Of a DNA stretch of 64,000 nucleotides, positions 14,649 through 29,990 are shown in pieces. The translations under genes and the position numbers were made by a program. The notes beneath the pieces are model-generated. The model did no database searches. It saw only the letters and a program-made list of their open reading frames with translations, and was not told where the DNA came from. The stretch's first letter is position 1; every line of letters begins with the position of its first letter. The DNA comes from Stappia indica (lineage in GTDB: Bacteria; Pseudomonadota; Alphaproteobacteria; Rhizobiales; Stappiaceae), in the NCBI RefSeq assembly GCF_009789575.1, contig NZ_CP046908.1, positions 3,687,001 to 3,751,000 on the forward strand, in the 5' to 3' direction.

Positions 14649-15368
14649 TCAGCGCACCGAGACGGGTTCGGGCTTGATTTCCGCGGTGCCTGGATCGGGG
14701 AACATCCAGTCCTGCTTGCGCGGCGCCGCTTCAGGCGTGTCGGCGCTGATCCGGCGATAGGTGGCGCGCGAGGACAGAAGATGGGCGCGCATCGCAGCTT
14801 CCGCCCATTCCGCATCGGCCGCCGACAGCGCTTCCACCAGATCGCCGTGCTGGCGGTTGCTGCGCATCAGCTCGGCCCGCGTCCAGCTGTTGAAGGTCGG
14901 ACTGACCACCGGCTTGCGGGCCACCAGGTTGACCAGTTCGGCGAAGAAGGCATTGCCGCCCTGCGCCCAGATCACCCGGTGGAACCGGGCATTGAGGTCG
15001 CGGTAGAGCCGCCGGTCCGGCTCGCTCTCGTGGATCGCCTCGTCCATCGCCTCGTGAAGCTCCCGCAACTCCTTCAGGAAGGCGTCGTCGCTGTGGCGCG
15101 CGGCCATGCCGACGGCGATCGGCTCCAGCGAGGCGCGGGCGGTGAAGATGTGGATGACCTCGTTGGGGTCGACATCGACGACCACGGCACGGCGATAGGC
15201 CTCGCGCCGGATCACGCCCTCCGCCTGCAGGCGGCGCATTGCTTCGCGTATCGGCGTGCGGCTGACGCCGAGGCGAGCGGCGAGCTCGCTTTCGGGCAGG
15301 ACATCGCCGCCGAGATAGGCCCCGGAGGCGATCAGCGCCCTGATCCTGTCGTAGATATCGCCCGCCAT
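14649..15368 (-). CDS. GntR-family regulator, FCD (FadR-like) subfamily
   Basis: A 239-residue repressor with an N-terminal winged helix (ESELAARLGVSRTPIREAMRRLQAEGVI, residues about 27-55) and an all-helical FCD effector domain. The FCD metal/ligand residues appear in RDLNARFHRVIW and RSNRQHGDLVEAL. It is the last gene of the minus-strand operon formed by the ABC importer, the alpha/beta hydrolase and this gene, with 22 bp to the hydrolase, so it probably regulates that operon by sensing a pathway acid. The GTATAC site near 22480 is a candidate operator. Confidence 0.92.
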   Translation of the reverse strand: MAGDIYDRIRALIASGAYLGGDVLPESELAARLGVSRTPIREAMRRLQAEGVIRREAYRRAVVVDVDPNEVIHIFTARASLEPIAVGMAARHSDDAFLKELRELHEAMDEAIHESEPDRRLYRDLNARFHRVIWAQGGNAFFAELVNLVARKPVVSPTFNSWTRAELMRSNRQHGDLVEALSAADAEWAEAAMRAHLLSSRATYRRISADTPEAAPRKQDWMFPDPGTAEIKPEPVSVR

Positions 15369-15390: not shown

Positions 15391-16557
15391 CTAGTCGTAA
15401 CCTCGCGTCTTCAGCCATTCCGACACGATGCCAGCTGCGCTGGCAAGCCTTTCGGGCTGATTGACGAAGTAATGATTGGCGCCCTCGACGAGCCTCATCT
15501 CGCGGTCGGCGGAGCCGACGGCGGAAAAGACCGCAGCCGTGTGCGGCTGCGGCACGGCATCGTCCGCGCCGCATTCGATGGCAAGGAACGGCACGCTGAC
15601 ATCGCGCGCGGTGATCAGCGAGTTGGCGCGCGAATGGGCGGGCGACCACTGCGACAGCCAGCTGCGCAGGGTGGAGAACCGGCCGAGGCCCGCCGGGCCG
15701 CTGTTGACCGTTTCCGGATGGCCGAGATAGCTCCAGCCCGGCTTGCGGCCGTTCGGCTCCAGCGTCGGATCGAGGAAGCGCGGGTCGGCCATGGTGCGGT
15801 AGGTGACGAAGGCGCGCTCCATCTCCTTGCCGCCGCGCCGGCGCAGATCCTCCAGCCGCTCCAGCACGCCGTTGGTGATGCGCTCCATGCGCGCGGCCTG
15901 GGCGGCCCGGAAGCGGGCGACGAACTGCGGCGAATAGGGCTCGGTCCGTGCCTCGTAGCCGGGCCGGTAGAGATCGAGCTCCGGGTCGCGGTCGTCGGGA
16001 TCGGCCTCGTTGCGCATCGACGGGTCGAGCCATTCCTGCAGCAGCACCGCGCGCGAGGCATGGGCGGCAAGGCTGAGCACCGCATCGGCCGGGATCAGTC
16101 CGGCGCCGGCCACATCGACCGGATCGCCGGCGGGCGTCTGGGTGATGGTCGGCCGCTCGGCCTGCGACTGGTAGAGCATGGTCAGCGACCCGCCGCCGCT
16201 CCATCCGCACAGGACGATGCGCTCATAGCCCCAGTCCTCCCTGGCCGCGCGGATATAGGCGCCGAGGTCGAGCAGCACGTTCTCCATGATCAGCGCGGTG
16301 TCGTTGCGCTGGTAGCGGCTGCCGGCGCACAGGACATGGTAGCCGAGTTCGGCCATCGCCCGCGGCAGCGGCAGCAGCTGCAAGGTGGAGGAGGGGTGCA
16401 TGAAGACCAGCAACGTCCGCGAGGGGCGGCCTGCCGGGCGGATCAGCACGCCTTCCAGATGGGTCATGCCCTGCGAGCCGTTGAAGCCGTAGGTCTCCGT
16501 GAAGGCCTGTTTCGCCGTGAAGGCGATGTGTTTCCAGTCGAAGACGAGGTCGCTCAT
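15391..16557 (-). CDS. Alpha/beta-hydrolase fold enzyme
   Basis: A 388-residue hydrolase. The nucleophile elbow is GWSGGG with Ser near residue 120, the acid is in CGADDAVP and the catalytic His in VEGANHYFVNQ near the C-terminus. The oxyanion region is FMHPSSTLQ. Between core and C-terminal strands is a long insertion (about 170-290) that probably forms a lid. It sits 18 bp after the importer ATPase gene and 22 bp before a GntR regulator, so it may hydrolyse an ester or amide group of the imported compound. The substrate is unknown. Confidence 0.85.
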   Translation of the reverse strand: MSDLVFDWKHIAFTAKQAFTETYGFNGSQGMTHLEGVLIRPAGRPSRTLLVFMHPSSTLQLLPLPRAMAELGYHVLCAGSRYQRNDTALIMENVLLDLGAYIRAAREDWGYERIVLCGWSGGGSLTMLYQSQAERPTITQTPAGDPVDVAGAGLIPADAVLSLAAHASRAVLLQEWLDPSMRNEADPDDRDPELDLYRPGYEARTEPYSPQFVARFRAAQAARMERITNGVLERLEDLRRRGGKEMERAFVTYRTMADPRFLDPTLEPNGRKPGWSYLGHPETVNSGPAGLGRFSTLRSWLSQWSPAHSRANSLITARDVSVPFLAIECGADDAVPQPHTAAVFSAVGSADREMRLVEGANHYFVNQPERLASAAGIVSEWLKTRGYD

Positions 16558-16575: not shown

Positions 16576-17666
<1,091 letters not shown>

Positions 17667-17670
<4 letters not shown>

Positions 17671-18767
17671 GCGCCTACCCTCATGTTGCGCCAGGTTTCG
17701 GGCCGGGCGGCCGCCGCGCGGAACTCGTCCGCGCGCTCGGTGTAGTGGCAGGCCGCCGACTGGGCGCCGACGGTGCGGACCTCAGGCACCGTGGTGCGGC
17801 AGAGGTCGGTCGCGAAGGGGCAGCGGCTGGCGAAGCGGCAACCCGAGGGCGGCAGCAGCAGGTTCGGCACGGTGCCGGGGATCGAGATCAGCGGCTGGCG
17901 CGGCTGGCCGCGCACCGGCAGGCGCGGAAAGGCGTTCTGCAGGCCCATCGTGTAGGGGTGCAAGGGGCGCTCCAGCACATCGGCCGTCGGCCCGCTCTCC
18001 GCGACCTTGCCCGCGTACATCACCACCACCGTCTCGCAGGTCTCCGCCACCACGGCGATGTCGTGGGTGACGAGGATCATCGAGCGGCGCATGTGCTCGT
18101 GGATGCCGCGGATGCGCGACATGATCTGCGACTGCATGATCGGGTCGAGCGCGGTGGTCGGCTCGTCGGCCAGCAGCATGCCGGCGTTGAGCGCCAGCGC
18201 CATGGCGATGACCGCGCGCTGGCGCATGCCGCCGGAGAACTGGTGCGGGAACTCGTAGAGCCGCTCCGCCGGCAGGCCGACCAGGGCGAACATCTCCTCC
18301 GCCCGCGCCCAGGCGACCGCCTTGCCGACCTTCTCATGCGCGAGGATCGCCTCGCAGATCTGGTCGCCGATGCAATAGACGGGATCGAGCGAGTTCATCG
18401 CGCTCTGGGTGATGAGCGAGATGCGGTTCCAGCGGATCGGCTCGAGCTGCGCGTCCGACAGGCCGAGGATGTTCTCGCCGTCGAGCAGCGCCTCGCCGGA
18501 AATGCCGGTGAACTCGGGCAGCAGGCCCATCAGTGCCTTGACCACGGTGCTCTTGCCGCAGCCGCTCTCGCCGACCAGGCCGAGATTGGTGCCGGCGCGC
18601 ACCTCGAAGCTGACGTCCTCGACCGCGTGGAAGCGTCCGCGCAGGGTCGAGTAGCCGATGGACAGGCCGTCGACCTTCAGATGGGCGGCCGGCTTTGCCG
18701 ACAGCCGCTCGTCGAGCCGGGCGAGATCCCGCGCAAGGGCGGGGGAGCGTGTTCTGGCGGGTGCCAT
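17667..18767 (-). CDS. Dipeptide/oligopeptide-type ABC importer ATPase (DppD-like)
   Basis: A 366-residue ATPase with Walker A GESGCGKST, signature FSGGMRQRAVIAMAL, Walker B MLLADEPTTALD and the C-terminal oligo_HPY region with CRFASRCPFATDLC. It pairs with the DppF-like protein to power the heterodimeric permease. Its start overlaps the permease stop by one base (TGATG) and its stop overlaps the next ATPase start. Confidence 0.94.
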
Positions 18768-19672
18768 CAGCGCCTCCTCAGTCGCGGGTTGGTCTGTTCC
18801 TCATAGGCGCGGCCGATGAGGTAGAGCGAGGAGACGAGCAGCACCAGCGCCAGCGAGGGCGGGACCACCCACCACCAGGCGGTGCGCAGGTTGCCGCTGC
18901 TGAAGGCGGTGTTCAGCATCTGGCCCCAGCTCACCACGGTCGGGTCGCCGAGGCCGAGAAAGGAGAGGCTCGCCTCCGTCAGGATCGCGAAGGCGACCGA
19001 CATCGTCACCCACAGGAAGACGATGCGCACGATGTTCGGCAGGATGTGCCGCATGATGATGTGGAAGTGCGAGGCGCCGGCGGCGCGTGCCCATTTCACG
19101 TAGACGCGCTCGCGCTCCGTCAGGACGGCGGAGCGGATGATGCGCGCGCCGTTGCGCCAGAACAGGATGGTGATGACCAGGATGATGTTCTCGATGCTCG
19201 GCCCCAGCAACGCCACCGCGACGATGGCGAAGGGCAGGGTCGGGATCGACAGCGCGATGTCGGTGAGGCGCATCAGGAAGTCGTCGACATAGCCGCCGAA
19301 ATAGCCCGACAGCACGCCGAAGACCGTAGAGATGAAGCCGACGGCGACGGCCGCGACCAGGCCGACGATCAGCGCCACCCGGAAGCCGTGCAGGAACTGG
19401 CTGAGCACATCGTTGCCGAAGGCGGTGGTGCCGAGCAGATGGGTTGCGTTGGGCGGCGACAGGCGGTTGAGCCGTCCGGTCTCCGTCATCATCGCCTTGA
19501 ACGGCTCGTAAGGGGCGAGCCAGGGGCCGATGATGGCCAGCAGGATGAAGATCGCGAGGATCGCCACGCCCACGACCGCGAAATTGTCTTCCATCAGCAG
19601 GCGGAACGAGTCGCGCACTGAACTGAAGAGGCTGCGCCCTCGAATGGCGCCCTGATCGGGAACTTGCGTCAT
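18767..19672 (-). CDS. ABC importer permease (DppC-like)
   Basis: A 301-residue inner-membrane permease of the peptide/nickel importer family. It has an N-terminal OppC-type membrane segment (FAVVGVAILAIFILLAIIGPWLAPY), then five more transmembrane helices. The EAA loop reads EVKWARAAGAS-like (VYVKWARAAGASHFHIIMRHILPN), where the ATPase docks. The start at 19672 overlaps the upstream permease stop by 4 bp. Solute specificity is unknown. Confidence 0.93.
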   Translation of the reverse strand: MTQVPDQGAIRGRSLFSSVRDSFRLLMEDNFAVVGVAILAIFILLAIIGPWLAPYEPFKAMMTETGRLNRLSPPNATHLLGTTAFGNDVLSQFLHGFRVALIVGLVAAVAVGFISTVFGVLSGYFGGYVDDFLMRLTDIALSIPTLPFAIVAVALLGPSIENIILVITILFWRNGARIIRSAVLTERERVYVKWARAAGASHFHIIMRHILPNIVRIVFLWVTMSVAFAILTEASLSFLGLGDPTVVSWGQMLNTAFSSGNLRTAWWWVVPPSLALVLLVSSLYLIGRAYEEQTNPRLRRR

Positions 19673-20634
19673 TTGTAGACAACCCTGGGATCGAGCTTGC
19701 CGTAGACGAGGTCGGCGGCGAGGTTGGCCAGCACGATCATCACGGCGAGAAGGAAGAAGGCCGCCTGCGCAAGCGGGTAGTCCTGGCGGGTCACGGCGAG
19801 CACCAGCTCGCGGCCGACGCCCGGCCAGGAGAAGACGATCTCGATCACCACGATGCCGGCGATGGTCTCGGCCAGTGCCGGGAACAGCCAGGTGATCAGC
19901 GGCAGCATCGAGTTGCGCGCGGCATGCCAGGCGACGCGGCGCTGCGGCACGCCCTTGGCGCGGACCAGCTCGATATAGTCCTCCGTCCGGTTCTCCACGA
20001 CGCCCGAGCGCATCAACAGCAGGTTCTCGGGCATGAAGTAGATGATGACCGCGATCAGCGGCAGCGCCAGATGGTGCAGGAAGTCGAGTGTGAGGTAGCG
20101 GGCAAAGCCCGTCGTCTCGCCCGGATCGCCCATGCCGAAGCCGGGAAACCAGCCGAGCGTCGAGGAAAACACGGTCAGCAGCGCGATGCCGATGACGAAG
20201 TTCGGCACGCCGCGGATGACCGTGGCAAGGAAGATGCCGGAGCGCTCCAGCTTGCCGCCGCGCCGGGCCCAGCCGACGGCCGTGCCGATGGCGGCGCCGA
20301 TGGCCGCGCCCAGCAGCAGACCGGGGACGGCGATCCACAGCGTGTTGACGATCAGCGGCCACAGCACCTCCCATACCGGCTTGCGGTAGAAGAAGGAGGA
20401 GCCGAAATCGCCCTGGATGAGGTTGCCGAGATAGGCCAGATACTGGTCCCACATGGAGCCGGTCAGGCCCCATTGTTCCAGCAGCGCCTGGCGCGCCTCG
20501 TCGGTCAGACCGCGTTCAAGCAGGATCGCGGTCGGGTCGGCGGGCATCACGCGGAACATGAAGAACATGATCGTCGTGACGGCCCATACGACGAGCACGC
20601 TCTGGGCGAGACGTCGAAGGATATAGGCGCGCAT
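19669..20634 (-). CDS. ABC importer permease (DppB-like)
   Basis: A 321-residue permease of the DppB type. It starts with the family's MRAYILRRLAQSVLVVWAV and periplasmic loop (MPADPTAILLERGLT, WGLTGSMWDQYLAYLGNLIQGDFGSSF), has six transmembrane helices, and the EAA loop is DYIELVRAKGVPQRRVAWHAARN. It forms the translocation pore with the DppC-like protein. It is 110 bp downstream of the binding-protein gene, with two strong hairpins in the gap. Confidence 0.93.
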   Translation of the reverse strand: MRAYILRRLAQSVLVVWAVTTIMFFMFRVMPADPTAILLERGLTDEARQALLEQWGLTGSMWDQYLAYLGNLIQGDFGSSFFYRKPVWEVLWPLIVNTLWIAVPGLLLGAAIGAAIGTAVGWARRGGKLERSGIFLATVIRGVPNFVIGIALLTVFSSTLGWFPGFGMGDPGETTGFARYLTLDFLHHLALPLIAVIIYFMPENLLLMRSGVVENRTEDYIELVRAKGVPQRRVAWHAARNSMLPLITWLFPALAETIAGIVVIEIVFSWPGVGRELVLAVTRQDYPLAQAAFFLLAVMIVLANLAADLVYGKLDPRVVYK

Positions 20635-20744: not shown

Positions 20745-22370
20745 TTACTTCTTGGGGAAGTGCAGGCGGCCCTGTCCGTCCCAGCCGTAGCCCGCCTCTT
20801 CGAGGATCTTGCGGGCGGCGTCGACGTCGAAGGGAACCTGCGGCAGCTCGGAGTTGTGCCACATGCCGAGCTGGACCGGCACCGGGCCCTCGCCGGCCGG
20901 GACGGCGAAGCCGAGCCAGCCTTCGATCGCGGCCCGCTGCTTGGCGGTGGCCGCGCGCAGCGCCTTGCGGAACGCAGGGTCGGTGAACGGAGCCTTCTGG
21001 TTGTTCAGCCAGACGAGCATGGAGCCGTGCGAGGGGATCTCGAGGAAGTCGAGATGGTCGTTCTGCGCGGCAAGGTCGCTCATCGCGGCAACCGGCAGCA
21101 CCATGCTGGCGATGTCGCCGGTGCCGGACAGCATGGCCGAGCGGATCGCGTCCGCCTGGCCGAGCGCCAGACGGCGCACGCCGTCATATTCGGCGGCATG
21201 GAAGTGCTCGGTGTTCGTCTCGAGCTCATGCGTCTCGTTGACGCGCCAGCTCTTGAACTTGAAGGGGCCGGACCCGATCACCGCACCGTCGGCGACGACG
21301 TCGCGGGCGACCTTGTCGCCGTCATAGTTCGCCCAGTGATGCTCGGGCAGGATGAACAGGTAGGTGAGGACGGTCGTCACGAAGGACGCGTCCGGAGCCT
21401 TCAGCTTCACGTTGAAGGTGAGGTCGTCGACCTTCTCCGCACCGGCCAGGTTGGCGATGCGCGAGGACATTGCCGGCGGCTGCAGCTCGACCACGGTGTT
21501 GATCGTGAAGACGGCATCGTCCGCGGTGACGGCTTCGCCGTCGTGGAACTTCATGCCTTCGCGCAAGGTGACCTTCACCGTCTGCGGATCGGTGAATTCC
21601 CATGCGGCCGCGGCCCACGGCACGGTCTCGCCCTTGGAGTTGTTCTTGGCGAACGTGTCGAAGATGAAGCGCACCCAGCCCACGGCACCTTCTTCGGCCA
21701 TCGGGTTGTAGGTGGTGACGTCCTCGTAATGCGCCCAGTCGAGGATGCGGTCGTCGGTCTTCGGCTTGGCCGAAAGCCACGGGTCGACAAGTCCCTCATG
21801 CGCGGCGACCGGCGCCGGGCTGGTGACGTTGTCCCATTTGTCGCTGTTCCACAGGATGCCGTAGACGGTGTTCGTCGCCGGCCACCACGGCGCGACGTCG
21901 TGGAAATACTTCTGCGCCTCATGCACCAGCTGCAGGCGCTCGTCCTGCTTGACCAGTTCGCGCTGCTTCTTGACCATCTCGGTATAGGCTTCGTCGCACC
22001 ACTTGGCGCCGTTGCGCCGGGCACCGCAGGCGCCGAGGTCGTGAAGCCAGTAGGTCGGATCCACGCGGTCCGGGTCCGCGCCGACGGTGAAGACGGCCAT
22101 GTCCTCGAGGCCGCCGCCGACCATGATGTTGGAGATGAAGCTGCTGAACTGGACCGGCTGCATCTGGAAGGACAGGCCGAGCTTGGCCCATTCCTCGCTC
22201 AGGACGCGAGCGGACTGTTCGTACATCGGGCCCATGTCGGCCGCGTAATAGGCGATCTGGAGCTGGGGAACCGGCTCTCCGAGATCCTGGGCCATGGCGG
22301 GTGCGCAAAGCGCAGCAATACCGGTCGACAGCGACAGCGTCGCGGCCAACCGCCTGATCTTGGCAGTCAT
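20745..22370 (-). CDS. ABC importer solute-binding protein (SBP_bac_5), apparently circularly permuted
   Basis: A 541-residue secreted protein with a signal peptide at residues 1-27 (ending APAMA). Residues about 36-204 carry the features that normally end a DppA/SBP_bac_5 protein: a strand-helix (LQIAYYAAD..., SEEWAKLGLSFQMQPVQFSSF), DP-rich loop DPDRVDPTYW, CGARRNGAKWCDEAYTEMV and the helix AQKYFHDVAPWWPA. Residues about 205-541 carry what normally begins one: ILDWAHYEDVTTYNPMAEEG, FIFDTFA, VTLREGMKFHDGEAVTADDAVF, then GSGPFKFKSW, the RKALRAATAKQ region and ARKILEEAGYGWDGQGRLHF, where the chain stops. Total length is normal, so this is a reordering, not a truncation. The ATG at 22370 has GGAGG 10 bases upstream. 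It is first in the importer operon. The ligand is unknown. Confidence 0.9.
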   Translation of the reverse strand: MTAKIRRLAATLSLSTGIAALCAPAMAQDLGEPVPQLQIAYYAADMGPMYEQSARVLSEEWAKLGLSFQMQPVQFSSFISNIMVGGGLEDMAVFTVGADPDRVDPTYWLHDLGACGARRNGAKWCDEAYTEMVKKQRELVKQDERLQLVHEAQKYFHDVAPWWPATNTVYGILWNSDKWDNVTSPAPVAAHEGLVDPWLSAKPKTDDRILDWAHYEDVTTYNPMAEEGAVGWVRFIFDTFAKNNSKGETVPWAAAAWEFTDPQTVKVTLREGMKFHDGEAVTADDAVFTINTVVELQPPAMSSRIANLAGAEKVDDLTFNVKLKAPDASFVTTVLTYLFILPEHHWANYDGDKVARDVVADGAVIGSGPFKFKSWRVNETHELETNTEHFHAAEYDGVRRLALGQADAIRSAMLSGTGDIASMVLPVAAMSDLAAQNDHLDFLEIPSHGSMLVWLNNQKAPFTDPAFRKALRAATAKQRAAIEGWLGFAVPAGEGPVPVQLGMWHNSELPQVPFDVDAARKILEEAGYGWDGQGRLHFPKK

Positions 22371-22629: not shown

Positions 22630-23910
22630 ATGCAATCTTCATGGGTACCTGGGGCCAACTCGCCCTCGGGAGACTTTCCCTTGGCAAATCTGCCGTACGG
22701 GGTGTTTTCGCGCGGCGGCGACGCTCCGCGCTGCGGTGTCGCCATCGGCGATCATGTGGTCGACCTTGCCGCGCTGGCGGCATCCGGGCTGCTCGGCGAG
22801 GCGGCCGGCGGCTGGGGTCTGGACGAGCCGGGCATCAATTCCTTCATGGCGGCCGGCCCCGAGGCCTGGGCCGTGCTGCGCGCCCGCCTGACCGACCTGC
22901 TCGCCGAGGACGGCTCTGCGGAACTTCGCGACAATGCCGCGCTTCGCGCCTCGGCCCTTGTGCCGATGGGCGAGGTGCGCATGCACCTGCCGTTCCGCGT
23001 CACCGGCTACACGGATTTCTATGCCGGCCGCCAGCACGCCTTCAACTCGGGCTCGATCCTGCGCGGTCCCCAGAACGCGCTGACCCCGAACTGGCCGCAT
23101 ATGCCCATCGGCTACAACGGCCGGGTGTCCACCGTCGTCGTCTCGGGCACGCCGGTGCGCCGGCCGCTCGGCCAGGTGCGGAACGAAGGCGCCGAGATGC
23201 CCGAACTGACCGCCTGCCGCCGGCTGGACATCGAGGTCGAGTTCGGTGCCGTCGTGGCCCTGCCGACGCAGATGGGCGAGACCCTGTCGGTCGCCGAGGC
23301 GTGGGAGCACCTGTTCGGCTTCGTGCTGCTCAACGACTGGTCGGCCCGCGACATCCAGCGCTGGGAGGGCCAGCCGCTCGGGCCGTTCCAGTCCAAGGCC
23401 TTCGCCACCTCGATCAGCCCCTGGGTCGTGACCCGTGCGGCGCTCGAGCCGTTCCGCTGCGGCCCGCCGGAGCGCGACACTCCGCTGCTGCCCTATCTGC
23501 AGGAGCCGGAGGACTATTTCTTCGACCTGACGCTGGAGGCGCATCTGACGCCCGAGGGCGGGGCGCCGAGCCGCATCGTGCGCACCAACACGAAGCACCT
23601 CTACTATTGCGCGCCGCAGCTCCTGACCCATCACGCCCTGTGCGGCTGCCGGATGCAGACCGGCGACCTGCTCGGATCCGGCACCATCTCCGGTCCCGAG
23701 CGGGAGGCCTTCGGCTGCCTGATGGAGCAGACCTGGGGCGGCCGCGATTCCGTGGAGCTGTCCGCCGGCGGCTCGCGGGTCTTCCTGGAGGACGGCGACA
23801 GCGTGACGCTGACCGGCTGGGGCGAGGTGAACGGCCAGCGGATCGGATTCGGACGGTGCGAGGGAACGATCCTGCCCGCGCCGCAAAAGGTCGGGAGGAC
23901 CGGACAATGA
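22630..23910 (+). CDS. Fumarylacetoacetase-like hydrolase
   Basis: A 426-residue protein with the full two-domain plan of fumarylacetoacetase: an N-terminal SH3-like domain opening with SWVPGANSPSGDFPLANLPYGVF, and a catalytic domain with YTDFYAGRQHAFNSGSILR, GYNGRVSTVVVSGTPVRRP, the metal-binding acidic run DIEVEFGAVV, LLNDWSARDIQRWE and LGSGTISGP. FahA cleaves fumarylacetoacetate in tyrosine/homogentisate breakdown. Here no homogentisate dioxygenase is adjacent and two more superfamily members follow, so the true substrate may be a related 2,4-diketo acid. It has a GGGAGGA ribosome site; its stop overlaps the next start. Confidence 0.9.
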   Translation: MQSSWVPGANSPSGDFPLANLPYGVFSRGGDAPRCGVAIGDHVVDLAALAASGLLGEAAGGWGLDEPGINSFMAAGPEAWAVLRARLTDLLAEDGSAELRDNAALRASALVPMGEVRMHLPFRVTGYTDFYAGRQHAFNSGSILRGPQNALTPNWPHMPIGYNGRVSTVVVSGTPVRRPLGQVRNEGAEMPELTACRRLDIEVEFGAVVALPTQMGETLSVAEAWEHLFGFVLLNDWSARDIQRWEGQPLGPFQSKAFATSISPWVVTRAALEPFRCGPPERDTPLLPYLQEPEDYFFDLTLEAHLTPEGGAPSRIVRTNTKHLYYCAPQLLTHHALCGCRMQTGDLLGSGTISGPEREAFGCLMEQTWGGRDSVELSAGGSRVFLEDGDSVTLTGWGEVNGQRIGFGRCEGTILPAPQKVGRTGQ

Positions 23911-24758
23911 AACTGTGCCGTTTTGGAGAAAACCGTCTTGGCGTGGTGCGCGGGAACGGCGTGCATGACGTCTCCGCCGTGCTGGACGACCTGCCGGCCC
24001 ACACCTATCCGCTGCCCGATCATGATCCGCTGATCGCCGCGCTCGATGAGCTGCGCCCCAAGATGGAGGCGCTGGCCGACGAGACCCCGGCCGTGCCGCT
24101 TTCCAGCGTGAGCCTGCTACCGCCGGTCGCCTCGCCGCGCAAGATCATCGGAGCGCCAGTGAACTACCGCCTGCATCTCGACGAGGCGCTGGAAGACCCG
24201 AACATCCACCACGGCACCAACATCATGCCGATCGACAAGGCGGGCCTCTTCCTCAAGGCGACGAGTTCGCTGATCGGGGCGAGCGAGCCGGTGACGATCC
24301 GTTTCCCGGAGGTCCGCAACGACCATGAGGTCGAGCTGGTGGCGGTGATCGGCCGCAAGGCCGACCGGGTGTCGCGGGAGACCGCGCTGGACCATGTCGC
24401 CGGCTATGCGATCGGGCTGGACATGACCGTGCGCGGCACGCAGGAGCGCAGCATGCGCAAGTCCTGCGACAGCTATTCGGTGCTCGGCCCCTGGATGGTG
24501 ACGGCGGACGAGATCCCCGACCCGTCCGCGCTGGAACTCGAGCTGCATGTGAACGGGGTGACGCGGCAGAAGGCCCGCACGTCCGACCTCATCCGCGACC
24601 TGGCAACGCTGATCGAGCGTGCCTCGTCCTTCTACACCCTGATGCCGGGCGACCTGCTGTTCACCGGCACGCCGGAAGGCGTCAGCGAGGTGAAGGCCGG
24701 CGACGAAATGCGCGCGAGCATCAGCAGCATCGGAACCATGACGGTCGCGGTCCGCTGA
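23907..24758 (+). CDS. Fumarylacetoacetate hydrolase family protein
   Basis: A 283-residue FAH-superfamily enzyme with a short N-terminal domain (MKLCRFGENRLGVVRGNGV) and a catalytic domain beginning KIIGAPVNYRLHLDEAL. The metal site is in NDHEVELVAVIG, followed by GYAIGLDMTVRG and the C-terminal GDLLFTGTPEGVSEVKAGD. Members hydrolyse or hydrate 2-oxo or acylpyruvate compounds. The usual GRNYxxH at the lid is replaced by GAPVNYRLH, found in some subgroups. It is coupled to the upstream gene by an ATGA overlap. Confidence 0.9.
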   Translation: MKLCRFGENRLGVVRGNGVHDVSAVLDDLPAHTYPLPDHDPLIAALDELRPKMEALADETPAVPLSSVSLLPPVASPRKIIGAPVNYRLHLDEALEDPNIHHGTNIMPIDKAGLFLKATSSLIGASEPVTIRFPEVRNDHEVELVAVIGRKADRVSRETALDHVAGYAIGLDMTVRGTQERSMRKSCDSYSVLGPWMVTADEIPDPSALELELHVNGVTRQKARTSDLIRDLATLIERASSFYTLMPGDLLFTGTPEGVSEVKAGDEMRASISSIGTMTVAVR

Positions 24759-24784: not shown

Positions 24785-25480
24785 ATGGATTACATCTTCG
24801 AGCCGACGCCGGTCAGCAGCCTGCCGGTCGCCGGCGAGACTGGGCGGTTTCCGGTACGCCGGATCTTCTGCGTCGGCCGCAACTACGCCGACCACATTCG
24901 CGAGATGGGCTTCCAGCCGGAGCGCGAGCCGCCGTTTTTCTTCACCAAGCCGGCCGATGCGCTGGTGCAGGACGGCGAGACGGTCGCCTATCCGCCGCTG
25001 ACCGAGAACTTCCACCACGAGGCCGAGTTGGTGATCGCCATCGGCAAGGAAGGCGCGGACATTCCGGTCGAGCGCGCGCTGGAGCACGTCTACGGCTATG
25101 CGACCGGCAACGACCTGACGCGCCGCGACATCCAGATCGCGCTGCGCGACCGCGGCCGTCCGTGGGACTGGAGCAAGGCCTTCGACCGTTCCGCCGTCTG
25201 CGGCGAGATCACCGCGATGCCGGGCAAGGCGCTGCCGGACGAGACCCGCGTGCTGCTCACGGTCAACGGCGAGACCCGCCAGGATGCGACGCTCGACCTG
25301 CTGATCTGGTCGGTGTCGGAGATCATCGCGGCGCTGTCCTCGTCCGTGACCATCCGCCCCGGCGATCTCGTCTATACCGGCACGCCGGCCGGCGTCGGCG
25401 CGATGGTGCCGGGCGATGTCTGCCGTGTTGAGATTTCCGGCCTGGCGCCGGTGACCACGACAATCGGACCGCGCGGCTGA
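24785..25480 (+). CDS. FAH family hydrolase, fumarylpyruvate-hydrolase-like
   Basis: A 231-residue single-domain FAH protein. Conserved features are CVGRNYADHIREMG, the metal-binding HHEAELVIAIG, GYATGNDLTRRDIQ, WDWSKAFDRSAVCG and LVYTGTPAGVGAMVPGD, the pattern of fumarylpyruvate hydrolases (NagK) and acylpyruvases. It is the third gene of a run of three FAH-superfamily genes, 26 bp after the second, with GGAAGG before the ATG. It probably cuts the acylpyruvate end-product of the pathway. Confidence 0.9.
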   Translation: MDYIFEPTPVSSLPVAGETGRFPVRRIFCVGRNYADHIREMGFQPEREPPFFFTKPADALVQDGETVAYPPLTENFHHEAELVIAIGKEGADIPVERALEHVYGYATGNDLTRRDIQIALRDRGRPWDWSKAFDRSAVCGEITAMPGKALPDETRVLLTVNGETRQDATLDLLIWSVSEIIAALSSSVTIRPGDLVYTGTPAGVGAMVPGDVCRVEISGLAPVTTTIGPRG

Positions 25481-25565: not shown

Positions 25566-27266
25566 TCAGGGCTCCAGCCCCGCGGCCGTGTGGCCGACGA
25601 TATAGCCGAAGGTGAGGGCCGGGCCGAGGGTGATGCCGGCGCCCGGATAGCTGCCGGCCATGATCGAGTTCATGTCGTTGCCGCAGGTATAGAGGCCGGG
25701 GATCGGCGTGCCGTCGGTGGCGAGGACCTCGCCGCGCCCGTTCGCCGACAGGCCGATGCTGGTGCCGATGTCGCCGGGGAAGATCTCGATGGCATAGAGG
25801 GGCGCCTGGTCGAGCGGTCGCAGGCAGGGATTGGGAGCGTTTTCCGCATCGCCCAGATAGGTCTGGTAGGCGGTCGATCCCTTGCCGAACGCACGGTCGG
25901 TGCCCTCGGCCGCATCCGTGTTGAAGCCGGCGATGGTCTGCGCAAGCGCTGCCTCCGGCACCTTCATCGCACGGGCGAGCTCCGCCGCATCGCGGCCGCG
26001 CTTCAGGTAGCCTGAGCGCAGGTGATGGCCGAACGGCGCGGGGAACGGGCGCACCGCGCCCATGCCGTAGCGCCGCAGCGCACGGTGATCGCAGACCAGC
26101 CAGGCCGAGGTATTGCCGCTCGACAGCATCGCCTGGACGAAGTCGTGATAGGACATCGCCTCGTTGGCAAAGCGCCGGCCGTCGGGGCCGACCGCGATGA
26201 CGCCGGGCTTTGCCCGGTCGAGAAAGAGGTGCGGGAAGGGGCGCGGGCCGCCCTTGCCCGGCAGCAGCGAGACCGGCGTCCAGAACGCGGCGTTGCTGTT
26301 GCCTTCGGTGATTGCCGCGCCGATCCTGGTCGCAAGGTCCAGCGTGTCGCCGGTGCTGTCCGTCGGCGACATGGAATAGTGCGGGGCGCCGGCCGCGACA
26401 TGCGGCATCACCTCCTTGCGCCGGGCCGCATTCTGCGGAAATCCGCCGGCTGCCAGTACGACGCCGCGCCGTGCAGCGAGCGTGCGCGTCGCGCCGCCAT
26501 GGGTGACCTCCACCCCATCGACCCGGCCGTCGCTGCGGCGGATGCCGGCAAGCGGCGTCTCCAGGAAGATCGGGATGTCGAGCGCCAGCACGCTTTCGGC
26601 GAGGCGGCCGGCGACGGCCTGCCCGAGCACCAGACGGGTGCCGCGCGGATGGGTCAGCCGGTCGCGCAGGTGTCGGGCCATCACACGCGCCGCATACATC
26701 GCGGAGGGGAGCGAGCGCGTCATCTTCATGAAGTGACCGATGTCGAACCGGTTCAGCAGCAGCCCGCCGAAGACGGTGAAATCGGCGATGGGAGGACGCA
26801 GCTTCGAGAACCAGCGGCCGAGCCGGCGGCCGTCGTAATCCTTGGCATCGAGCACGCGGCCGCCGAGCGCCGCGCCCGGCGTGTCGGGGTGATAGTCGGG
26901 CGAATAGGCCCGGTAGTCGAACTGCAGCGCAGTGTGCTTCTCGAAGAAGTCGACCATGCGCGGGCCGTTGTCGAGAAAGGCGTGTACGACATCGGCATTG
27001 AGCCGGTTGCCGGTCTCCGCCTCGATGTAGCGGAAGGCCTCCTGCCTGTCGTCGCTCATGCCGCCGGCGCGCATCTTCGGATTGTCGGGGATCCAGATCG
27101 CCCCGCCGGAGACCGCCGTCGAGCCGCCGAAATGGGCGGACTTTTCGAGGATCGCCACGTCGAGGCCTGCAAGCCGGGCGGCGATGGCGGCGGCCATGCC
27201 GGCGGCGCCCGAGCCGACGACGATCAGGTCGTACGCATCCTTCAGGACCGGATCCTTGCGTGTCAT
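25566..27266 (-). CDS. FAD-dependent oxidoreductase (FAD_binding_2; 3-ketosteroid dehydrogenase/fumarate reductase-like)
   Basis: A 566-residue flavoenzyme. The dinucleotide fold is VVGSGAAGMAAAIAARLAG with LEKSAHFGGSTAVSGGAIWIP, and the C-terminal FAD motif is GLYTCGNDMNSIMAGSYPGAGITLGPALTFGYI, as in 3-ketosteroid delta-1-dehydrogenases and related flavoproteins. It probably introduces or reduces a C=C bond next to a carbonyl group. There is no signal peptide. Last gene of the SDR-TRAP-SDR operon; its ATG at 27266 overlaps the upstream SDR stop by 4 bp. Steroid specificity is not implied. Confidence 0.85.
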   Translation of the reverse strand: MTRKDPVLKDAYDLIVVGSGAAGMAAAIAARLAGLDVAILEKSAHFGGSTAVSGGAIWIPDNPKMRAGGMSDDRQEAFRYIEAETGNRLNADVVHAFLDNGPRMVDFFEKHTALQFDYRAYSPDYHPDTPGAALGGRVLDAKDYDGRRLGRWFSKLRPPIADFTVFGGLLLNRFDIGHFMKMTRSLPSAMYAARVMARHLRDRLTHPRGTRLVLGQAVAGRLAESVLALDIPIFLETPLAGIRRSDGRVDGVEVTHGGATRTLAARRGVVLAAGGFPQNAARRKEVMPHVAAGAPHYSMSPTDSTGDTLDLATRIGAAITEGNSNAAFWTPVSLLPGKGGPRPFPHLFLDRAKPGVIAVGPDGRRFANEAMSYHDFVQAMLSSGNTSAWLVCDHRALRRYGMGAVRPFPAPFGHHLRSGYLKRGRDAAELARAMKVPEAALAQTIAGFNTDAAEGTDRAFGKGSTAYQTYLGDAENAPNPCLRPLDQAPLYAIEIFPGDIGTSIGLSANGRGEVLATDGTPIPGLYTCGNDMNSIMAGSYPGAGITLGPALTFGYIVGHTAAGLEP

Positions 27267-28024
27267 GCGGCGTCTCCCGGGCGCGGATAGCGGCCGACGG
27301 CCCAGCCGCCGTCGACGCGAAGCGTCGCGCCCGTGATGAAGGCGGCCTCGTCGCTGGCAAGGAAGGCGACGGCATCGGCAACCTCGCCAGGCGTCCCGAC
27401 CCGGCGCAGCGGCGCCTGCTCGATGAAGACATGCTTGCGCCAGGTCTCCGTGCGGATCCGCTCGGCGGTCAGCGGCGTCTCGATCAGTCCGGGGGCGACG
27501 GCGTTGACGCGGATGTTCTCCGGCCCGAAGTCGGTCGCCATCTGGCGGGTCATGCCGTCGACGGCAGCCTTGCTGGTGCTGTAGCCGGCGCTGCCGGTCG
27601 CCCCGACGATGGCGTAGATCGAGGCGATGTTGACGATGGCACCGCCGCCTGCGCGGCGCATCTCGCCGACCGCGAACTTGCTGAGCATGAACACCGGCAG
27701 CACGTTGATCTCGAAATAGCGCCGCACGTCCTCGGCGCTGGTCTCGTCGGCGCGCCCGCCGCCGCCCACCCCGGCATTGTTGACGAGGATGGCGAGCGGG
27801 CGCCCGGCAAGCGCTGCGGACAGCGTCTCGGGCAGCGCCGGATCGGTGACGTCGGCCATCACCGTCTCGATGCCCTGCGGCAGCCGGGCCAGACCCTCCG
27901 CATCGCGGTCGACGGCGATGACCGTGGCCCCTTGCGCGGCGAGGCGCTCGGCGATGGCGAAGCCGATGCCGGAAGCGGCACCGGTGACGATGGCCAGACG
28001 GCCGGTGAAGCGATTGGTGTCCAT
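27263..28024 (-). CDS. Short-chain dehydrogenase/reductase
   Basis: A 253-residue classical SDR: cofactor loop TGAASGIG, Asp after the second strand (VIAVDRDAEGL) suggesting NAD preference, NNAGV, catalytic Ser in NIASIYAIVG, and the YSTSKAA Tyr-Lys pair. The C-terminal VDGGWAVGRY is typical. It oxidises or reduces a hydroxyl/keto group in the catabolic pathway. It is 26 bp after another SDR and overlaps the FAD-oxidoreductase start. Confidence 0.93.
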   Translation of the reverse strand: MDTNRFTGRLAIVTGAASGIGFAIAERLAAQGATVIAVDRDAEGLARLPQGIETVMADVTDPALPETLSAALAGRPLAILVNNAGVGGGGRADETSAEDVRRYFEINVLPVFMLSKFAVGEMRRAGGGAIVNIASIYAIVGATGSAGYSTSKAAVDGMTRQMATDFGPENIRVNAVAPGLIETPLTAERIRTETWRKHVFIEQAPLRRVGTPGEVADAVAFLASDEAAFITGATLRVDGGWAVGRYPRPGDAA

Positions 28025-28050
28025 GATCCCGTCCTCGGGTCGAGGGATGG

Positions 28051-28785
28051 TCAGAAGCTCGTGGTGCCGCCGAGCGAGCGCCCGCCGTCGACGAGCAGCA
28101 CCTGGCCCGTGATGAAGCCGGCCTGCGGCGAGCCGAGGAAGGCCACGGCATGGGCGATGTCGTCCGGCGCGCCGAGCTGGCCCATCGGCTGCTGCGCCCG
28201 CAGACCGTCCAGATCGGTGTCCGAGCGGGCCTTCAGCATGTCGGTCTCGATCACGCCGGGGGCGACCGCGTTGACGCGGATCTTGCGCTCGGCCAGATCC
28301 AGCGCCATGGCGCGGGTGAGGCCGGCGACGGCCGCCTTGGAGGCGACGTAATGGGCGTAGTGGCGCGCGCCGAGCATGGCGCGCGAGGCGATGTTGACGA
28401 TGGCGCCGCCGGGCTGCATGCGCGCGGCGATCTTCTGGGACAGGTCGAACAGGGCGACGAGGTTGACCTCGTACATTTTTCGGAAGTCGTCGGGCGCCAG
28501 CTCGAAGAAGCCCTTCACGTTGAAGATGCCGGCATTGTTGACGAGCAGGCGCACGTCCCCGGCCTCCTCGGCAAGGCGGGCGACGGCAGCCGCATCCGTG
28601 ACGTCGAGCGCATGGGCGCGGGCGCTGCCGCCGTTTGCGCAGATGGCGGAGGCGACGGCTTCCGCGTTGTCGGCGGCAAGATCGGCGACGATGACCTGAT
28701 GGCCGTTCTCGGCAAGGACACGGGAAATGGCCGCGCCAATTCCCGCGCCGCCGCCGGTCACGATGGCGATGGGGTTCTGTGTCAT
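28051..28785 (-). CDS. Short-chain dehydrogenase/reductase
   Basis: A 244-residue classical SDR with TGGGAGIG, IVADLAADN (NAD-type Asp), NNAGIF, NIASRAMLG and the catalytic YVASKAA. The ATG at 28785 is preferred over an in-frame TTG two codons upstream. It is the first of two consecutive SDR genes between the TRAP binding protein and the FAD oxidoreductase. The two SDRs are clearly different in sequence, so they are not a recent duplication. Confidence 0.93.
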   Translation of the reverse strand: MTQNPIAIVTGGGAGIGAAISRVLAENGHQVIVADLAADNAEAVASAICANGGSARAHALDVTDAAAVARLAEEAGDVRLLVNNAGIFNVKGFFELAPDDFRKMYEVNLVALFDLSQKIAARMQPGGAIVNIASRAMLGARHYAHYVASKAAVAGLTRAMALDLAERKIRVNAVAPGVIETDMLKARSDTDLDGLRAQQPMGQLGAPDDIAHAVAFLGSPQAGFITGQVLLVDGGRSLGGTTSF

Positions 28786-28826
28786 TGGCAATGATCCGTC
28801 AGGTCGAAAGGGGAGGCGGGGAGGCA

Positions 28827-28858
28827 GCGGGCGCCGTGGGGAGAGGTCCGGCGCCCGC
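28827..28858 (-). promoter_or_regulatory. Intercistronic hairpin after the TRAP binding-protein gene
   Basis: A perfect 9-bp GCGGGCGCC/GGCGCCCGC stem with a 14-nt loop lies just downstream of the TRAP binding-protein stop on the minus strand. There is no T-run, so partial termination or mRNA protection is likely. Confidence 0.55.
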
Positions 28859-28868
28859 CGCTGCGTCG

Positions 28869-29990
28869 TCAGTTCATGCCGAAGCTGTTCTCGTCGATCT
28901 TCGAGTACAGGTTGTCCTGGAGGATCTTGGCCAGCGCATCCGCATCGGTGCGGTCGACGCCCTCAAGCAGTCCCTTCCACTTCGTCTGAAGCGCCTGGAA
29001 CTCCTCGATGAGGTCGGTCGGATCCTCGACCTTGCGGTCATCCATGGACTTCTTCGGCAGGCCTGCGACGAAGTTGGTCTGGAACTCCTTGAGCTTGGAG
29101 GTCAGGTCCTCGGACGGCTCGATGATCTCGAGGCCGCGCTCCTTGGAGCCCTCCATCGCCGCCGCGACGCCGACGTGATAGGCGACCTGCGCGCGGGCAT
29201 TGCCGACGGCCATGTTGTCGAGCAGCACGCGGCGCTGTTCGGGGGCGAGCCCCTGCCAGAAGCCCGGGTTGATGACGTAGTTGGCGCCGAGCACCACGCC
29301 CATCGGCAGGGTGGTCACGGACTTCGCGACTTCCCAGAACTTGTTGCCCTTGTCGAGGTTGGTCGGGTCCGACATGGTGCAGTCGATGGAGCCGCGGCTG
29401 AGGCCCGAGTAGACGTCGCCGATCGGCACGGAGACCGGCACGCCGCCGAGGTTTTCGACCCAGGAGGTCTGGGCGCCGCCCGCGGTGCGGATCTTCAGGC
29501 CCTTGGCGTCGGCTGCCGCGCGGATCGGCTTGACGCAGATGAAGTTGTAGACCGGGGTGGAGTAGCCGCCGGCGAAGATGCCGCCGTTCTTCTTCCACTC
29601 GCCGACGATGCGCTCGTTGGTCATGCCCATTTCGGTATAGGCGAAGGCGGAGGCGATATCGTCGTCGGAGACGAAGACGAGATCGTTGAGCACGTTGTTG
29701 AGCGGCAGTTCCGAGGGGGTGTAGCCCGGATAGACGATGCCGAGCTGGGCGACGCCGTCGCGGATCGCCTGCATGGTCGACTTGGCCGGCACCAGCGCGC
29801 CGCTGGAATAGACCTCGAAGGTGATGGCGCTGTCGGTCGCGGCCGCAACGTCCTTGGAGAACTTCTGGTAGGTCTCCTCGTTGAGGATGTGGACCGGCGC
29901 CATCCAGTTGGTGGCCTGGTACACGTCCGCATAGGCGGCCGAGCCCATCAGGCCGGCAGTCAGGGTCGCAAGGGCGAGCAGTTTCTTCAT
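28869..29990 (-). CDS. TRAP transporter solute-binding protein (DctP family)
   Basis: A 373-residue secreted protein with signal peptide at residues 1-21 (LMGSAAYA). The DctP/SBP_bac_7 fold shows the usual helix GAQTSWVENLGGVPVSVPIGDVYSGLSRGSIDCTM, where the conserved Arg in LKIRTAGG would bind the ligand carboxylate. It captures an organic acid in the periplasm for the membrane subunits encoded upstream. The 70-bp gap to the large permease contains a small hairpin. The ligand is not known. Confidence 0.93.
   Translation of the reverse strand: MKKLLALATLTAGLMGSAAYADVYQATNWMAPVHILNEETYQKFSKDVAAATDSAITFEVYSSGALVPAKSTMQAIRDGVAQLGIVYPGYTPSELPLNNVLNDLVFVSDDDIASAFAYTEMGMTNERIVGEWKKNGGIFAGGYSTPVYNFICVKPIRAAADAKGLKIRTAGGAQTSWVENLGGVPVSVPIGDVYSGLSRGSIDCTMSDPTNLDKGNKFWEVAKSVTTLPMGVVLGANYVINPGFWQGLAPEQRRVLLDNMAVGNARAQVAYHVGVAAAMEGSKERGLEIIEPSEDLTSKLKEFQTNFVAGLPKKSMDDRKVEDPTDLIEEFQALQTKWKGLLEGVDRTDADALAKILQDNLYSKIDENSFGMN

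Follow-up and report, generated by a model that had tools for sequence, protein, structure and literature searches.

Does the solute-binding protein gene at positions 20745..22370 (minus strand) of the 64,000-nucleotide stretch of Stappia indica DNA analysed here, hereafter the window, encode a protein whose parts stand in exchanged order? The protein belongs to family 5 of the ATP-binding cassette (ABC) solute-binding proteins, a large and well-studied group (PF00496) with DppA, OppA, NikA and AppA among its members, which we take to be what is called Cluster C. The coding sequence is complete: it runs from an ATG at 22370 to a stop at 20745, specifies 541 amino acids, and direct reading of the sequence finds a Shine-Dalgarno-like GGGAGGAAA upstream of the ATG. 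The original prediction had given these coordinates correctly, the frame being that of the minus strand, and every motif that it quoted is found in the protein. Behind a signal peptide (residues ~1-27, 22290..22370, minus strand; cleavage site judged by eye, without a predictor), the part that is C-terminal in canonical proteins comes first and the canonical N-terminal part second; this order is confirmed as real. We consider it highly probable that the gene product is, as had been proposed, a natural circular permutation of a family-5 (Cluster C) binding protein, a reading that is backed by the order of profile matches, a rotation scan, structure prediction and a conserved clade.

The exchange is seen with family models as well as with proteins of solved structure. 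Positions 2-284 of the 368 positions of PF00496 match residues 249-534 with 175.7 bits against a cut-off of 32.4, which places the protein in family 5 (SBP_bac_5) by sequence, and further NCBIfam family-5 models match with their front parts from residue ~205 to 534. The front of the protein corresponds to the back of the NCBIfam DppA model (390-509 of 535, matching residues 51-170). The same picture was obtained in a search of PDB sequences, here judged from the best 60 of 87 matched sequences: chain positions 387-509 of 5f1q match residues 48-170, and 79-345 of 1xoc match residues 262-529. Seen from the other side, the dipeptide-binding protein 8z1y aligns with a profile built from 41 permuted proteins in two pieces, profile positions 182-506 corresponding to chain 29-367 and 17-159 to chain 383-521. 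Both parts are homologous to one reference and stand swapped within one chain, so that the linear order of canonical proteins is inverted. An alignment in normal order over the whole protein, named beforehand as a finding that would speak against a permutation, did not occur among the family models and PDB chains listed. The protein stays below the cut-offs of the models for individual transporters: it scores 52.9 bits with the DppA equivalog NF043070 (cut-off 1005) and 68.1 versus 393 and 79 versus 600 bits with the NikA equivalogs TIGR02294 and NF045468, respectively.

A rotation test leads to the same result. The mature protein was rotated at every third residue and scored against a profile of 58 distinct canonical relatives. 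In its native order it matches this profile in two swapped pieces of 222.5 and 42.0 bits; when rotated at residue 181, the best point, it matches as a single piece of 274.7 bits (profile 9-458 of 489), with rotation points from ~172 to 205 nearly tied. Among 200 shuffled sequences 103 had any match and the maximum was 3.9 bits; the two swapped matches are therefore not due to chance. Since rotation raises the whole-sequence score only from 263.3 to 275.1, the evidence lies mostly in the swapped order of two good matches and not in the score. One result weighs against the permutation: the isolated front part (residues 28-204) has no Pfam match at an E-value of 0.01. Pfam, which had been suggested as a check on the two halves, therefore does not demonstrate the inversion by itself. 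The permuted order does, however, explain why the front part lacks a Pfam match when taken alone.

The AlphaFold model of the protein is confident (predicted local distance difference test, pLDDT, 88.9; predicted template modelling score, pTM, 0.88), and in a comparison with solved binding proteins, a kind of check that had been proposed, its C-terminal part corresponds to their back and its N-terminal part to their front; the predicted fold is that of family 5. When modelled alone, the C-terminal part gave low confidence. The model is numbered on the mature protein, 27 residues having been added here to give full-length positions. Its last strand of at least three residues in the C-terminal part ends at residue 175 and the first strand of the N-terminal part starts at 209, and the only runs of at least three residues with a pLDDT below 50 (185-191 and 193-195) lie in between. 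On this basis the chain is divided into the canonical C-terminal part, now in front (residues ~28-175, 21846..22289; NCBIfam, PDB, profile and fold matches), a linker from the old C-terminus to the old N-terminus (residues ~176-208, 21747..21845; AlphaFold model), within which the originally predicted join at codon 204/205 falls, and the canonical N-terminal part, now at the back (residues ~209-541, 20748..21746; Pfam, NCBIfam, profile and fold matches), with which the chain terminates in AGYGWDGQGRLHFPKK; all three lie on the minus strand. Permuted chains typically start at the strand before a 'W.KLG' helix and end in 'AGY.W...G+LHYP'. The old termini, which the original prediction had placed together in domain I, would be joined by the ~33-residue linker, and the new termini would lie in a different loop, bounded by 'AGY...G+LHYP' on one side and by the strand before 'W.KLG' on the other; this loop presumably belongs to the other lobe. 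The signal peptide would now sit on the new N-terminus. We suggest that the protein folds in the manner of DppA or OppA, closes on its ligand as they do and hands it to its permease.

An order due to faulty assembly, or to the chance rearrangement of a gene in decay, should not recur. A contig scan (16 stretches, 12 relatives) identified 11 distinct loci whose proteins cover the query with 78-99% identity; they come from two Stappia, Paracoccus, Acuticoccus, Nitratireductor, Aminobacter, Devosia, Aureimonas, Pseudorhodobacter, Pseudotabrizicola and a Rhodobacteraceae. In the own genome there are 14 matches, and the window gene alone spans the whole query. The further genome samples come from the phylum of the window, beyond which the contig scan detects close relatives only; moreover, the order, class and phylum samples overlap and few top candidates were scored per genome (six with the order sample, three with the A4 searches of class and phylum), so that the counts are lower bounds. 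In the junction search of 385 genomes of the class, 18 had matches, and the own genome and 11 others encode collinear proteins over ~500 residues, the latter with 25-29% identity to the permuted query (blastp). A junction profile, A3, was discarded: it matched in 67 of 398 genomes of the phylum, but among the matches listed only the window gene spans the model (1-198 of 199), the longest other match listed (61-198, L068) being a canonical protein. Its place was taken by a full-length profile, A4, built from 21 permuted proteins. This profile has near-full-span matches in at least ten of 249 genomes of the order, where permuted proteins score 499.6 to 689.8 bits and the other matches listed no more than 228.3; none of the non-permuted matches listed starts before profile position 134 of 519. 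In the class (385 genomes) A4 matches in at least 14 genomes, 13 times over the full span and once cut by a contig edge, and in the phylum (398 genomes) in at least one, the own genome.

The order is also kept on plasmids, from which the evidence for archaea stems. With the window protein as tblastn query, 72,556 plasmid records yielded 23 with matches of 23-30% identity (E limit 1e-20). In each of the 23 records one place accounts for at least 80% of the query, and in 22 it does so as a single piece; the bacteria belong to Neorhizobium, Ketogulonicigenium, Roseomonas, Nitratireductor, Microvirga and Maritalea, and the haloarchaea to Haladaptatus, Halorussus, Natrononativus, Halalkalicoccus and Halarchaeum. 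Three further queries from other subfamilies reached this coverage in 34 of 34, 30 of 68 and 42 of 48 records, and the rows listed for them are single pieces (for the second query, the best 40 of 68). With the third of these queries, the five Cytobacillus records match over only 58-63% of its length, starting at residue 181 or 206, as expected of canonical proteins. By blastp, each of ten plasmid-borne proteins gives a single alignment with the window protein, and the permuted profile likewise spans each of these ten in one piece, although nine of them had been used to build it. On the Nitratireductor sp. OM-1 plasmid NZ_CP029209.1, two or three places respond to each permuted query (tblastn), and several paralogues may coexist there. 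Genome G044 also has two permuted binding proteins, L032:643-2526 and L125:1480-3213, from different subfamilies of the tree. A plasmid relative in two pieces, both by annotation and by tblastn, is L085:7013-8666 on Neorhizobium galegae plasmid pNgVX; the next gene there is one long permease frame that overlaps both the DppB and the DppC matches, and decay, fusion or sequencing errors are possible. Apart from this case and the general possibility of such errors, nothing speaks for a rearrangement by accident: the 11 close loci with their open frames, together with the many distant relatives in Alphaproteobacteria and haloarchaea that keep the order, rule out a misassembly, and we give an artefact or a decaying gene practically no credence. 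The natural permutation was thus also borne out where conservation of the order in a clade had been proposed as a check.

It remained conceivable that canonical relatives share the inverted order, which had been named in advance as an argument against a permutation. Open frames of at least 400 residues in 129 loci that matched the permuted profile at an E-value of 1e-10 were sorted by their arrangement. Among 68 non-permuted relatives, 60 have the normal order and eight the N-terminal part only, and the inverted order in two pieces was not found once; 59 frames match the permuted profile in one piece, a count in which the same gene may recur under several locus identifiers. The permuted order is conserved and widespread, and it is unremarked in the annotations examined.

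Did this order arise once? A tree was calculated from 35 permuted and 55 canonical rows, with rows more than 90% identical merged and with common profile columns irrespective of segment order; four of the eight relatives with only the N-terminal part were included and four dropped. A single branch separates all 35 permuted rows from the canonical ones, with a Shimodaira-Hasegawa-like approximate likelihood ratio test (SH-aLRT) support of 97 in the quick tree and 100/97 in the careful tree, and all 200 bootstrap trees agree on one change of order. In the tree of the N-terminal half the permuted group again forms one branch (support 93, not starred). Two points qualify this result. First, the tree of the C-terminal half (136 columns) does not resolve the permuted rows and needs two changes; one clade is not rejected (approximately unbiased test, p-AU 0.663), and the tree held to one clade scored 5.60 log units higher. 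Second, the columns derive from the profile of the permuted family, and several long rows are included, so that a single origin is likely, but not proved. Haloarchaeal rows turn up at several points between the bacterial ones, a pattern suggestive of transfer or of great age. Repeated, independent permutation at one and the same loop could account for this scatter and for the two changes in the C-terminal tree; in view of the one well-supported branch of the full tree and of its bootstrap trees, we judge it unlikely. Still less probable is a fusion of pieces from two different binding-protein genes by domain shuffling: a different-gene origin was raised for the permuted part of TpMglB-2 by Brautigam et al. 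(PMC4990184), and the C-terminal tree has low power, but each half alone is compatible with one origin.

A permutation that arose once may have come about by duplication and trimming. Circular permutations usually arise through a tandem duplication with loss of both outer ends, and the gene may have originated in this way, as had been suggested; the intermediate or duplicated remnant that might have strengthened this view was not found, as a search with a hairpin profile detected no duplicated hairpin in the permuted proteins. Two of them, L027:631-2751 and L032:643-2526, carry ~50 additional residues at the N-terminus and a tail at the C-terminus. The N-terminal extensions were suspected to contain a remnant, a candidate that was rejected because the C-terminal hairpin profile gave at most 0.1 bits as compared to up to 11.0 with shuffled sequences.

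The permuted group, which could be called 'permuted Cluster C', has a precedent outside its family. For TpMglB-2 (Tp0684) of Treponema pallidum, a Cluster B binding protein, a natural circular permutation has been described together with a crystal structure and with glucose binding accompanied by a shape change; the authors proposed the names 'Type Ic' or 'Cluster Bc' (PMC4990184). TpMglB-2 and its relatives resemble the window protein in being a natural permutation of an ABC binding protein kept in a clade, whereas they belong to the sugar-binding Cluster B, have another cut site and occur in treponemes and Gram-positives; the window protein is assigned to family 5 by its sequence and fold matches, and its group occurs in Alphaproteobacteria and haloarchaea. 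The imelysin of Bacteroides ovatus, a bacterial protein implicated in uptake, is likewise described as naturally permuted (PMC3143127); it differs in its all-helical fold, and its authors set it apart from periplasmic binding proteins. In engineered biosensors, binding-protein folds are often cut or opened, whereas the order seen here is natural and conserved. Within the searches made of open-licence PubMed Central papers, in which TpMglB-2 was the one natural precedent found for an ABC binding protein, the claim that no description is known thus holds for family 5, but not for binding proteins at large.

The genes that accompany the permuted gene point to an importer. Downstream on the same strand follow genes for a DppB-like permease (19669..20634; Pfam, NCBIfam), a DppC-like permease (18767..19672; NCBIfam on 18767-19645, start codon by eye, overlapping dppB), DppD-like (17667..18767) and DppF-like (16576..17670) ATPases with oligo_HPY domains (Pfam, NCBIfam), an alpha/beta hydrolase (15391..16557; weak Hydrolase_4 match, no NCBIfam match) and a GntR/FCD regulator (14649..15368). 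Divergently, on the plus strand, lie a fumarylacetoacetase gene (22630..23910; TIGR01266, 515.7 bits, cut-off 375.3) and two genes for hydrolases of the fumarylacetoacetate hydrolase (FAH) family (23907..24758 and 24785..25480), the latter with at least 70% identity in seven of the 11 close loci. In all 11, the order binding protein, B, C, D, F, hydrolase, GntR and the first two divergent FAH genes is kept, and relatives of all four transporter genes are near the permuted gene in 11 of 11 plasmid loci, so that dppBCDF adjoins it in all 22 neighbourhoods compared; in L082 the transporter genes have another order. The window protein shares its sequence family, predicted fold and dppBCDF neighbours, that is, oligopeptide-type permeases and ATPases, with DppA, OppA, NikA and AppA, from which it differs by the segment order and by a near-invariant Arg-x-Asp-Pro motif. 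Because the transporter genes go with the permuted gene in close and plasmid loci alike, it is very likely, as judged from gene context, that the window protein is the binding subunit of an importer. Family-5 proteins have side roles elsewhere, and the window protein might have kept the fold and serve as a chemoreceptor partner or signal sensor, but with the gene directly in front of B-C-D-F in all 11 close loci we regard this as improbable. The importer might take up a compound that is then broken down by the neighbouring alpha/beta and fumarylacetoacetase-type hydrolases.

What might the permuted proteins bind? The Arg of the motif (residue 102) is present in 33 of 34 filled permuted rows and in one of 38 filled canonical rows, 17 of the 55 canonical rows being empty at this gappy column. 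It adjoins the place taken in DppA by Asp436 (numbered on the precursor, by eye, from the 8z1y alignment), the residue that binds the amino end of the peptide. Our hypothesis is that permuted proteins may prefer acidic or N-blocked ligands. The neighbouring genes include hydantoinase/oxoprolinase, M28 and M20 peptidases and Asp/Glu racemase on bacterial plasmids, and D-aminoacylase and dipeptide epimerase on Haladaptatus plasmids; the hydantoinase/oxoprolinase, D-aminoacylase and hydrolase neighbours are in line with this idea. In Halorussus halophilus (L081:8696-10799), genes for a coenzyme A (CoA) transferase and a CoA ester lyase lie between the permuted gene and the permeases. As to export, a twin arginine like that of twin-arginine translocation (Tat) signals is present in 16 of 42 permuted proteins and a lipobox-like motif in five, all archaeal; these counts come from a regular expression and are crude, since frames may extend before the start codon. 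In these five proteins the anchor would hold the protein at its new N-terminus. Taken together, a family-5 branch of Alphaproteobacteria and haloarchaea that is annotated as ordinary may be of single origin, work with an inverted topology, be held by another lobe in export or anchoring, and have acquired a new ligand chemistry via the near-invariant Arg; we offer this wider proposal tentatively, with slightly more doubt than confidence that all of it will hold.

Such a conserved branch would mean that the signal peptide or lipid anchor can be shifted to another part of the protein without loss of the fold or of its docking to the permease, and it provides a natural test of how the chain order affects folding, export and tethering. 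The protein also offers a ready-made scaffold whose termini lie elsewhere, and since the branch is found in bacteria as well as archaea, next to catabolic genes of several kinds, its ligands become a testable question. Finally, beyond the FAH genes the window contains a further set of genes on the minus strand (25566-29990), for a flavin adenine dinucleotide (FAD)-binding oxidoreductase, two short-chain dehydrogenases and a binding protein of the DctP type of tripartite ATP-independent periplasmic (TRAP) transporters; within a flank of 8 kb, this set is present in only the two Stappia loci of the 11 compared.
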